In this document: one piece after another, positions 52,257 through 55,042 of the stretch | How positions within the stretch are numbered: the stretch's first letter is position 1 | Layout: every line of letters begins with the position of its first letter | Assembly (NCBI RefSeq): GCF_945882965.1 | Contig: NZ_CAMCWY010000011.1 | Coordinates: 1-64,000 of the forward strand | Length of the DNA: 64,000 nucleotides | Direction of reading: 5' to 3' | Origin: Sphingorhabdus sp. EL138 | GTDB taxonomy: Bacteria; Pseudomonadota; Alphaproteobacteria; Sphingomonadales; Sphingomonadaceae | Translations under genes and position numbers: made by a program | The notes under the pieces: generated by a model | Databases searched by the model: none | Told to the model about the DNA's origin: nothing | Seen by the model: only the letters and a program-made list of their open reading frames with translations

Positions 52257-53624
52257 ATGGCCACCATATTAAGCCTTTTCTCGCGTCGCGGCTCGGGAAA
52301 CCTCCCTTCTGATTCAGAAACTAATTCTTCGGTAGAAGGTGGCAAGTTCAAGTTTCCAGACGAAGCTTCGGTGCACGCGCAAGATCTGGAGGCGTTCGGA
52401 AGCCTTGGTGAAAGCAAGCAATCCATTGAGTATGCCATTAGCACTGTTCATCAAGGACTGGTTGGCATGCAGGCCCTTGTCGAGCAGGTTGCCGTCCTAA
52501 GGGCTGATTTGACCAAGATCTTCGAGGAACATCGCAAACTCGCTTTGGCAAATTCAGCCATTCGGCAAGAACGCGACCAGACCCAAAAGCAACTTATTGA
52601 AAAGTCAGAGAAGTACAAAGCCACGCACGCAGCGCTTGTGCCGCTACAGTTAGAAGTCGAAGACTTGCGGCGCAATTATGAGCTCACGCGTACAGCTCTC
52701 GAAGCCCTAGAGCATCGGCACCATTTGTTCAGTGTGGCTAAGCGCGAGACTGAGGATCAACTTGATCGCTATGTAAGCCAATTAGCTGTGGCAAATGAGG
52801 AGGTAGACAACCTTCGGCTCGAAGCCACTTCTCTTCAAGAGACGGTTGAAAATTACACACTGAAAATTGCGGATCTGACTGCTAAATGCAACGATTCAAA
52901 CAGCCAGCTAATGTTTCTTACTAATCAGTGTGAGGCGTTAGACAACACCCTACAGAAAAAATCAGATGAAATAATTGCTGCTAACGAGAAATACGATCTC
53001 ATTTATCAAGAGAAACAATCTGCCGTTCTCTACAGTCAACAAAAAGAGCAAGAAGCCATACATGCTCGGAACGAAATGACTCGCTTGTTTGAGGAAGGCC
53101 AGCAAGATAAAAAAGTTCGGGATACGGTCATCAACAAACTTAAATCGGAGCTTGATAATGCCCGAGCTAAACTAAGGATGCTTGATGAAGTTAATTCTGA
53201 AGTTACTGGAGAAAATGAAAGGCTCGGACTGGCGATACGTCGCTTGGACGATTTGGTAAAACAGTCAAATGCTAAAAATGGCCGACTGGAGACCAATGTT
53301 GAGCGACTGAATGCGAAGTTAGACACGACAATTGAGGCCAAGGTCCAGACTGAACAGTCGCGGGCAACAATCACCGAGCGACTGGAGGCCATGACGCAAT
53401 TGTTAGAGGAGCGAGAGGCTGTTATAAAAGAGCGGGACGAGCAAGTCGCGCGACTAGTTAATCAATCTGAGCAGGAGCGCGACAGTTCGCAGGACGCGAT
53501 CGAGAGCTTGGGCCTTAAAGTCTTCGAACTTGAGAAGGAACTCACAGCTCAGCGCAACCAAACGGCTTTCTATGTCAGCCAGTTAGAGGCAGCGCAGCGT
53601 AACACAACCGTTCGCAAAGCATAA
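52257..53624 (+). CDS. Long coiled-coil, crescentin-like filament protein
   Basis: A 455-residue protein. The head is short and basic (MATILSLFSRRGSG), followed by a polar linker. From about residue 45 to the end it is an almost unbroken heptad coiled coil rich in Glu, Gln, Lys, Leu and Asn, with no enzymatic motif. Crescentin has the same plan: basic membrane-contacting head, long rod, no transmembrane segment. Other long coiled coils (SMC-fragment or polarity scaffolds) cannot be excluded. AGGAT precedes the ATG. Base composition is clearly lower in GC than the housekeeping genes around it. A bactofilin-like gene and an mreB paralogue follow on the same strand. Confidence 0.7.
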   Translation: MATILSLFSRRGSGNLPSDSETNSSVEGGKFKFPDEASVHAQDLEAFGSLGESKQSIEYAISTVHQGLVGMQALVEQVAVLRADLTKIFEEHRKLALANSAIRQERDQTQKQLIEKSEKYKATHAALVPLQLEVEDLRRNYELTRTALEALEHRHHLFSVAKRETEDQLDRYVSQLAVANEEVDNLRLEATSLQETVENYTLKIADLTAKCNDSNSQLMFLTNQCEALDNTLQKKSDEIIAANEKYDLIYQEKQSAVLYSQQKEQEAIHARNEMTRLFEEGQQDKKVRDTVINKLKSELDNARAKLRMLDEVNSEVTGENERLGLAIRRLDDLVKQSNAKNGRLETNVERLNAKLDTTIEAKVQTEQSRATITERLEAMTQLLEEREAVIKERDEQVARLVNQSEQERDSSQDAIESLGLKVFELEKELTAQRNQTAFYVSQLEAAQRNTTVRKA

Positions 53625-53636
53625 CCTACTAACGGA

Positions 53637-53909
53637 ATGTTTCTGTTGATCAAGTACAACTGCGCGAAGCTCAGTTGCCTTTCAGCGCTGCGCAGTCTCT
53701 TTGCAAAGAAATCCACAACGTCACCCCTTCAAAGTTTGATAGGGTCGGATGTTGTGATCTCAGGCCGCTTGAAGTCGGCTGGTGATGTCTATCTGCTCGG
53801 TAGGATAAAAGGTAAAGTCGAGTGTTGTCGTCTATTTATGTCCGACGAAGCAAGCGTGTTCGAAATTGCATCAACGACAGACATTATCCTTTTTGAAAAA
53901 AATACTTAG
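53637..53909 (+). CDS. Short bactofilin-like protein
   Basis: A 90-residue product. From about residue 33 it follows the start of the bactofilin beta-helix (SLIGSDVVISGRLKSAGDVYLLGRIKGKVECCRLFMSDEASVF). It ends after about three rungs, where full bactofilins go on for several more. The N-terminal 30 residues are hydrophobic/basic and could touch the membrane. It starts 12 bp after the coiled-coil stop. It may be truncated or a minimal form; ATG 53637 has only a weak CGGA upstream. Confidence 0.6.
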   Translation: MFLLIKYNCAKLSCLSALRSLFAKKSTTSPLQSLIGSDVVISGRLKSAGDVYLLGRIKGKVECCRLFMSDEASVFEIASTTDIILFEKNT

Positions 53910-54010
53910 CAGATGCAGGACGCTTTTCTAATGTTGAACGATACTTGTTCTTCCATTGTTTTTGCCAGTTATCGATTTCGTGCACGCGGGTTGAAAGGAA
54001 GTAAAGCCTA

Positions 54011-55042
54011 ATGCTCGACAGGATCCTAAAGTTTGCATCATTCGATCTCGCAATTGACTTAGGCACCGCAAACACCATCGTGCATGTACCAAACCGCGGT
54101 ATAGTGCTGGATGAACCGTCTGTCGTTGCGATTGAAACGATCAATGGTGTCAGGCGGGTCAAGGCTGTTGGCGACGAAGCCAAACTTATGGTGGGTCGAA
54201 CACCTGCATGTATTGAAGTGATCCGGCCGCTGAAAGACGGGGTAATTGCCGACATTGAAGTTGCAGAGGTAATGATCAAGCACTTCATTGGGAAGGTGTT
54301 CGGTCGACGACATTTTCGAAGGGCTCCCGAGGTTGTAATATGCGTACCTTCAGGCGCTACTTCCGTCGAAAGCCGAGCTATTAGGGATGCGGCTTCCAAT
54401 GCGGGGGCAAGGGCAGTGCACTTGATCTTTGAACCCATGGCAGCTGCCATTGGTGCCGGCCTGCCAATCGCAGAACCAATTGGTTCGATGGTAGTCGATG
54501 TGGGTGGCGGCACGACCGAAATCGCCGTAATTTCTCTGAGCGGCCTCGCCTACACAGCGTCTGTTCGCGTTGGCGGAGACAAGATGGACGATGCAATCGT
54601 GTCCTACGTTCGCCGAAAACACAATCTGCTAATCGGCGACACAACCGCGGAGCGGATAAAAAAGGAAGCTGGCGTGGCGCGTCGTCCAGTAGAGGAACAT
54701 GGCAAGACGTTAAACATTAGGGGGCGTGATCTCGTCAACGGCGTACCTGACGAAATCACGATCAACCAAATGCAGATTGCAGAAGCATTGTCGGAACCGG
54801 TCGGCGCTATTCTTGAAGGCGTTAGAATTGCTTTTGAGAATACGGCCCCTGAACTCGCGGCTGACATCTTAGACGAAGGTATTGTCCTCACAGGGGGAGG
54901 AGCTCTTTTAAGTGGCTTAGATGCCGCGATCAGCGAGGCAACTGGATTGTCGGTAATGGTGGCCGACGACCCCTTAACTTGCGTTGCTAGAGGCACTTTA
55001 CTTGCTCTGGAAAAGGAACAGTTTCGCATATTTACCCATTAG
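54011..55042 (+). CDS. MreB paralogue (second actin-like protein)
   Basis: A 343-residue MreB-family ATPase. Intact phosphate-1 loop (IDLGTANT, about 15-22), catalytic Glu141 in [10 protein letters not shown], phosphate-2 DVGGGTTE (163-170) and the C-terminal GGGALLSGL adenosine motif. It has an N-terminal amphipathic start ([10 protein letters not shown]). Compared with the canonical MreB at 60-61 kb it is clearly diverged. Where that protein has RRMFSYP in the membrane-insertion loop, this one has HFRRAP. GAAAGGAAG precedes the ATG. Probably forms filaments of its own or mixes with MreB; the link to the coiled-coil and bactofilin genes suggests a shared shape or polarity role. Confidence 0.9.

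Follow-up and report, generated by a model that had tools for sequence, protein, structure and literature searches.

The window analyzed here, which is a stretch of 64,000 nucleotides from Sphingorhabdus sp. EL138 (contig NZ_CAMCWY010000011.1, positions 1 to 64,000), contains a block of genes on one strand whose core consists of a 455-residue coiled-coil protein, hereafter abbreviated as cc, and a second, divergent form of the actin-like protein MreB, hereafter MreB2. Genes for cc and an MreB follow each other on the same strand in three groups of genomes, and we see about an even chance that they belong to an accessory cytoskeletal operon residing at tRNA sites, in which cc, tethered to the membrane by its own MreB, would bias the growth of the cell wall. 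The block is composed of the following elements (ORF, open reading frame; aa, amino acids).

52181..52256, plus strand: cc leader, directly 5' of cc, where DNA homology with the L092 locus of a congener (genome G331) starts
52257..53624, plus strand: cc, 455-aa coiled-coil protein, core gene, ATG start
53637..53909, plus strand: bactofilin-like gene, accessory, 90 aa that cover just the first part of the bactofilin core
53913..54011, plus strand: remnant ORF of 32 codons, left from a 94-100-aa hydrophobic protein
54011..55042, plus strand: MreB2, 343 aa, second and divergent MreB with nucleotide-binding motifs kept, core gene

It is likely that cc, the bactofilin-like gene and mreB2 constitute one operon, because the spacing between the first two is only 12 nt and the stop codon of the remnant ORF overlaps the start codon of MreB2. 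An in-frame TTG lies 3 nt upstream of the cc ATG, and a scan for consensus promoters and terminators gave scores within one standard deviation of shuffled sequences. The homology with L092 covers window positions 52181-53719 (L092 11923-10387) with 81.6% DNA identity. MreB2 matches PF06723 with 437 bits, over the cut-off, and its alignment retains the nucleotide-binding motifs of canonical MreB, including LTGGGA; by profile and motifs it is a true MreB. It shares 72% identity with the canonical MreB of the same window (60084-61091) and up to 76% with canonical MreBs of other genomes. The first-pass annotation had seen three classes of filament protein adjacent on one strand, a view that holds for the gene layout and for MreB2 and only in part for the bactofilin-like protein, as detailed below.

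Recurrence of the pairing and selection on its genes

Seven homologues of cc are considered in this work, namely those of the window, L092, Novosphingobium sp. AAP83 (locus L108), G367, G447, G938 (L115) and G944 (L116). A pattern scan of the species-genome collection, which used a two-sequence cc alignment and only two peptide patterns and thus reaches close relatives only, returned the L092 contig and AAP83; in the latter, a cc of 54% identity, a bactofilin-like gene and an MreB gene have the same order and strand as in the window. Profile searches found cc in three of 195 genomes of the AAP83 genus (AAP83, G938 and G944; E <= 1e-8) and in three of 397 sampled genomes of the family of the window (the window itself, G367 and G447; E <= 1e-12), while a search with the single cc sequence recovered the window alone among 296 sampled genomes of the order. 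In five of the seven loci (window, L092, AAP83, G367 and G447), cc is directly followed by an MreB gene in the same orientation, a pairing that spans the genus of the window, Novosphingobium AAP83 and the genus of G367 and G447. The three-gene set put forward in the initial annotation is therefore complete in the window and AAP83, whereas L092, G367 and G447 share with them cc followed by MreB; judging from this gene order, cc and MreB are the core of the module.

Could these genes be chance neighbours without common function? The short and weakly matching bactofilin-like gene and the seemingly different ancestry of the MreB partners would suit such an explanation, but the same-strand succession of cc and MreB in most loci, in three groups and at unrelated genomic sites, makes chance very unlikely, and we regard this possibility as extremely improbable. 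The association also appears to be specific for cc, because no cc or bactofilin match was found beside 51 other second or third MreBs. These derive from 53 places in 49 genomes, besides that of the window, among the 296 sampled from the order; in 51 of the 53, a conserved module could be discarded, since neither a cc or bactofilin match nor a long coiled-coil-like ORF was present within the ~8 kb searched with phmmer on each side as far as the contig extended; the two remaining places, in G221 and G273, were left out. The bactofilin profile of this screen was built from two sequences only, so that a distant bactofilin could escape it. The second MreBs of the order sample form two classes, one with ~58-65% and the other with ~38-44% identity to MreB2, and cc is missing from the 51 loci. 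Separately, ~3 kb past the AAP83 module (L108 15518-17631), a CsgG-family gene (PF03783, E 1e-16) is preceded by a 230-aa gene of no family; the two are possible genes for the export of surface fibres.

The bactofilin-like protein of the window reaches 21.3 bits with PF04519 (E 3.3e-4), under the cut-off of 27.9 and along profile positions 1-43 of 98 only, whereas its 102-aa homologue in AAP83 passes the cut-off with 28.6 bits along positions 1-50; the two proteins have GDVYLLGxIKG in common in their alignment. The same profile, applied to the whole genome at E <= 0.001, retrieved one other protein, a full bactofilin on contig C15 that is distinct from that of the window. The bactofilin-like gene is cut down to a 50-aa remnant in L092 and went undetected at the loci of G367 and G447; on this distribution it is an accessory rather than a core gene. 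A hydrophobic ORF of 94-100 aa, of no known family, stands directly before mreB2 in L092 (10011-10313) and in L093 of the congener G317 (8717-9001), and the window retains a 32-aa remnant of it. Among the few congeners seen, the bactofilin-like gene and the hydrophobic ORF seem to replace each other.

Both core genes are under purifying selection. For cc, the ratio of nonsynonymous to synonymous substitution rates (dN/dS) between the window and L092 is 0.22, compared with 0.97 and 1.57 in frame-shifted controls, and for MreB2 it ranges from 0.09 to 0.17 overall and from 0.13 to 0.17 for the window copy versus its orthologues, the value for window and L092 being 0.17. Synonymous divergence (dS) between these two loci is 0.56 for cc, 0.45 for MreB2 and 0.51 for canonical mreB, and since the values for the module are similar to that of the canonical gene, the module need not postdate the split of the two species. 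These data bear on the possibility of a decaying relic, that is, an operon that is useful elsewhere and is shedding its parts in the window. Its signs would be the short bactofilin-like gene and ORF remnant of the window, the bactofilin remnant of L092 and the partial MreB2 of the congener G297; yet cc and MreB2 are of full length and show low dN/dS ratios at a dS close to that of canonical mreB, and we find decay of this kind decidedly unlikely.

Architecture of cc and its resemblance to crescentin

The seven cc proteins show pairwise identities of 25-93% and aligned lengths of 438-456 aa, with alignment gaps confined to head and tail and ~400 rod columns (~43-443) free of gaps in all sequences. 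Their layout comprises a short hydrophobic and basic head (MATILSLFSRR), a rod at ~44-446 and a short tail. A hydrophobic periodicity of 3.5 residues is strong in the mean profile (z 7.2 versus shuffles), and all seven sequences can be divided into three heptad segments with two +4 shifts, located at 271-291 and 394-415. In the mean profile the shifts fall at 277 and 400, with a score of 336 versus 93 +/- 18 for permuted columns; the L116 protein presents one additional break at two lower penalties. An AlphaFold model obtained with three-sequence input predicts helices at 2-11, 36-48, 54-259 and 264-454, with a mean predicted local distance difference test (pLDDT) of 83 and a predicted template modelling score (pTM) of 0.42. 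No Pfam or NCBIfam family scored above its cut-off with cc, and PHROGs and PADLOC returned only weak generic coiled-coil matches for it, one match of the L121 cc being a tape-measure protein (E 0.0075).

Among Pfam families, that of the crescentin rod, PF19220, matches the largest number of cc members, albeit weakly (four of seven at E <= 0.1, best 1e-4). Moreover, the cc profile found 22 Protein Data Bank (PDB) sequences at E <= 10, of which crescentin alone was matched across the whole profile, cc positions 45-452 aligning with crescentin residues 26-440 at a weak E of 0.36; two further cc members searched singly in the PDB gave short weak matches only. The architecture typical of crescentin, with a head, a long heptad rod interrupted by a stutter, a short tail and a length of ~457 aa, is found in cc as well. 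In the consulted portion of PMC10873595, the crescentin stutter is placed at 406-409 and the basic first 27 residues are required for membrane attachment. A rod architecture of the crescentin type is no proof of descent; we call cc crescentin-like in form, common descent being unproven. The crescentin family itself was detected in none of 190 genomes of the class at E 1e-8.

tRNA sites and ancestry of the MreB partners

The surroundings of the block include the following features.

49772..55411, 5.6 kb: variable segment, missing at the same site in the congener G279
50037..51002, plus strand: HisKA_2/HWE kinase, companion cargo in the variable segment, not core
51142..51606, plus strand: response regulator, companion cargo in the variable segment, not core
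55420..55495, minus strand: tRNA-Lys(CTT), with its 3' end facing the block

The end of the block beside tRNA-Lys, already noticed at first sight of the sequence, is thereby substantiated, and the canonical cell-shape genes (MreC and MreB) lie beyond this tRNA on the strand opposite to the block. So is the suggestion of a lower GC (guanine plus cytosine) content than in the neighbouring genes: the GC fraction is 0.48 in cc, 0.447 in the bactofilin-like gene and 0.525 in MreB2 versus 0.557 in the whole window, while GC at third codon positions (GC3) is 0.49-0.51 in the block versus 0.59-0.65 in six further genes. The kinase and response regulator, which are among these six, have neighbour-like GC3 and lie inside the same inserted segment. 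The kinase ORF stops inside its ATPase domain, matching PF02518 along positions 4-50 of 111 only, and its final residues read like those of another frame, which may reflect a frameshift or a truncation; a 97-aa ORF with no Pfam match (51673-51966, minus strand) is situated between the response regulator and cc.

In G279 (L097), the flanks left of 49771 and right of 55412 stand ~28 bp apart, forming a near-empty site, which could itself be a deletion because in G297 the same flanks enclose 3.9 kb of other genes. The 3' side of tRNA-Lys is variable in general (window 49772-55411; L093, L097 and L104), extending from ~28 bp in G279 to 3.9 kb in G297 and 5.6 kb in the window; in G317 it carries other cargo, including a partial copy of tRNA-Lys and one receptor-like ORF that we take to be TonB-receptor-like.

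The MreB2 type (86% identity) occurs in four of 45 genomes of the genus, that of the window included, the G297 copy being devoid of its 5' third. In three of the four, the 3' end of a tRNA lies 377-585 nt past the MreB2 stop, and this tRNA is Lys in the window, Tyr in L092 and Gln in L094 of G297, next to the truncated MreB2. In the fourth genome, G317, MreB2 precedes a partial copy of tRNA-Lys that comprises its 3' portion (L093), and no complete tRNA was found on that stretch. Between MreB2 and the tRNA, L092 contains a 91-aa integrase-like fragment (PF00589, E 0.016, below the cut-off). A search of window positions 48001-55395 for an 11-base repeat of the tRNA end gave none. Several tRNA 3' ends and a near-empty site were thus found, and an intact integrase with flanking att repeats was not. 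As far as these loci go, the pattern fits, without proving it, an element that moves between tRNA genes and is now without a complete integrase. The horizontal spread that the first-pass annotation had envisaged gains support from three different tRNA sites, the weak integrase remnant and the patchy presence in the genus.

Plasmids offer precedents for both actin and coiled-coil partners, and the module might accordingly be seen as a maintenance or positioning apparatus of a mobile element, with an actin-like filament and a coiled-coil adaptor that segregate the DNA of the element in the style of ParM and KfrA. The location at tRNA sites and the weak integrase remnant would agree with such a role; against it, MreB2 is an MreB and not ParM or AlfA in profiles and tree, cc contains no DNA-binding domain by Pfam, and neither tblastn against 72,556 plasmid records nor pattern scans of viral contigs gave a match to cc. 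We judge this apparatus to be very unlikely. A phage or plasmid origin of cc was likewise set aside on the basis of these searches. MreB2 has no viral-contig match either, and the MreBs of phage records are less than 60% identical to it, save one match in the 60-80% band that falls outside the 20 listed.

In a tree of 101 MreBs, those of the module fall in three groups. The first contains the MreBs of the window, L092, G317 and G297 (support 100/100) and lies inside the canonical clade; the second is formed by those of G367 and G447, which stand beside canonical MreBs including AAP83's own; the third is the module MreB of AAP83, on a long branch of unsure placement. A second tree, of 40 rows hand-picked from the 101, agrees with the larger one. 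The MreB partners of cc are therefore probably not one clade. On the simplest reading of the trees, cc has gained MreB copies, or exchanged them, at least twice; a single, fast-evolving origin is less likely. Convergent residues in the module MreBs were evaluated too: eight conserved columns are changed in both groups versus 3.3 expected, four of the eight to the same residue, and the candidate was dropped since in all four the shared residue is also frequent among other second MreBs. As a separate observation, the sole MreB matches of the congener G309 at E <= 1e-60 (contig C50:31342-32357) are two overlapping frames (query 1-160 and 159-339), representing a frameshift or an assembly error.

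Tentatively, and with somewhat less than even probability, the module may be described as a mobile cytoskeleton, in which an intermediate-filament-like (IF-like) protein travels with a private actin, MreB2, and sometimes with a mini-bactofilin, MreBs of the host lineage being captured repeatedly and a new program of shape or polarity being gained with each operon. The relationships of MreB2 are also pertinent to a modulator of the elongasome, a rather unlikely alternative in which MreB2 would co-polymerise or compete with canonical MreB while cc would act as a separate scaffold, for example for division or polar proteins, without contacting MreB2. Such a modulator would be in keeping with the closeness of MreB2 to canonical MreBs, with its conserved motifs and with its persistence on a G317 contig where cc was not detected. 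However, the tight order of cc and then MreB recurs in three groups whose MreBs seem to differ in ancestry, which suggests a functional link of cc to MreB as such.

Proposed function and comparison with known systems

Gene order, recurrence, selection and rod architecture can be read from the sequences, and from them we propose how the accessory operon may work. cc would build long filaments of the crescentin type, anchored on the inner membrane by its hydrophobic and basic N-terminus together with the dedicated MreB2 filament, which would come into contact with the cc filament and guide it. Once held at the membrane, the cc filament could locally bias or slow the wall growth driven by the elongasome, and biased growth might then set the curvature of the cell or mark one side or pole. 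The bactofilin-like protein, or the small hydrophobic protein in other copies, would be a replaceable part for anchoring or positioning. With an extra MreB, the module could use or rewire the elongasome of its host while the essential canonical MreB remains unchanged.

Several observations weigh against this proposal. The pairing is missing in G938, where cc is found without MreB on a 6-kb contig, and in G944, where cc is followed by transposase-like genes, presumably of IS21 type, with no adjacent MreB; conversely, the G317 contig that carries a full-length MreB2 is devoid of cc, and G297 retains only the 3' two thirds of MreB2. Either the partnership of cc and MreB2 is not obligate, or cc is present elsewhere in the G317 and G297 genomes. 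With regard to the nature of cc, its PF19220 scores are 10.1 bits in the window, 12.6 in L092 and 21.2 in L108, with a cut-off of 100; the crescentin-like character claimed at the outset consequently holds for length, head and rod architecture and fails for profile membership. A tropomyosin profile matches the L092 cc at E 8.3e-6, better than that of crescentin, and the best NCBIfam match of cc is SMC (38.9 bits, E 2.3e-10). The latter match lends some substance to the earlier worry of an SMC fragment, but it remains far under the cut-off of 567 and concerns the coiled-coil arm only, while cc is a stand-alone protein of near-constant length in seven genomes. The monomer model is compatible with a parallel dimer and with an SMC-like hairpin alike, and its Foldseek matches are generic coiled coils (SMC, Rad50 and chemoreceptors). 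The AlphaFold model of the bactofilin-like protein is weak (pLDDT 52.5) and a fold search with it gave no bactofilin. Monophyly of the module MreBs is rejected by the approximately unbiased test for the six rows without AAP83 (p-AU 0.021), the value for all seven being 0.053. Finally, PMC10873595 itself lists arguments against a contact between MreB and crescentin, namely that AlphaFold gave no complex and that crescentin bends Escherichia coli.

Other published work is more favourable to such a contact. In Caulobacter, MreB co-immunoprecipitates with crescentin, whose attachment to the envelope depends on MreB (Charbon 2009, as cited in the portion of PMC3137890 seen here), and the same portion reports that MreB inhibition detaches crescentin. 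The membrane-attaching component of crescentin is still sought, MreB being one candidate, according to the part of PMC10873595 considered here. A natural operon of an IF-like rod with its own MreB, present in environmental bacteria that are presumably harmless and readily cultured, would make the anchoring of crescentin-type filaments, and the role of MreB as link, directly testable, because the specificity of the partners can be addressed by exchanging MreBs that differ in ancestry. The operon further suggests that determinants of cell shape can travel between genomes as units.

To our knowledge, this would be the first natural operon joining an IF-like filament to a dedicated actin. The impression that no such system had been described stands as far as open-licence literature on crescentin, MreB, bactofilin and the cytoskeleton of Sphingomonadales is concerned: the pairing of cc with MreB was not found there by title and abstract, in a search with weak coverage of MreB paralogues and with subscription papers outside its range, and within the same partial view no open-licence paper was found that links Novosphingobium with crescentin. 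An add-on cytoskeleton that pairs cc with an extra MreB hence looks undescribed so far.

Among known systems, crescentin is the one closest in form to cc. The two are alike in length (457 aa for the PDB chain versus 455 aa), in their short head with basic residues and in their long rod of heptads, which is broken by a stutter close to residue 400, and a weak full-length profile match connects them. A functional tie to MreB would add to this likeness, being reported for crescentin in the portions of the Caulobacter literature mentioned above and suggested for cc by gene order. They differ in that cc falls under the PF19220 cut-off, has two 4-residue shifts versus the one described stutter and is encoded alongside its own MreB gene. 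Moreover, cc belongs to Sphingomonadaceae, while crescentin-like proteins are restricted to Caulobacteraceae and Hyphomicrobiales in the part of PMC12700997 at hand; cc would thus extend IF-like proteins to an order beyond the range reported for crescentin.

Coiled-coil-rich filament proteins of bacteria of the Scy/FilP type, named in the consulted part of PMC10873595, constitute another term of comparison. They share with cc the condition of coiled-coil filament candidates and are set beside it by description, not by sequence. We know of no dedicated actin partner for them. The bactofilin-like proteins of the window and AAP83 resemble bactofilins such as BacA in the first ~43-50 positions of PF04519 and are unlike them in size, their 90-102 aa corresponding to about half of the core. 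Accessory paralogues of MreB are represented by Mbl and MreBH of Bacillus (PMC3206058, in the portion seen). Like them, MreB2 is a true MreB as judged by its profile, and its identity to the closest canonical MreBs listed amounts to 72-76%. Nevertheless, it stays apart in the trees from the second MreBs that are frequent in the family, and it differs from other MreB paralogues in its patchy distribution, its position outside the mre operon and at tRNA sites, and its partnership with a coiled-coil gene.

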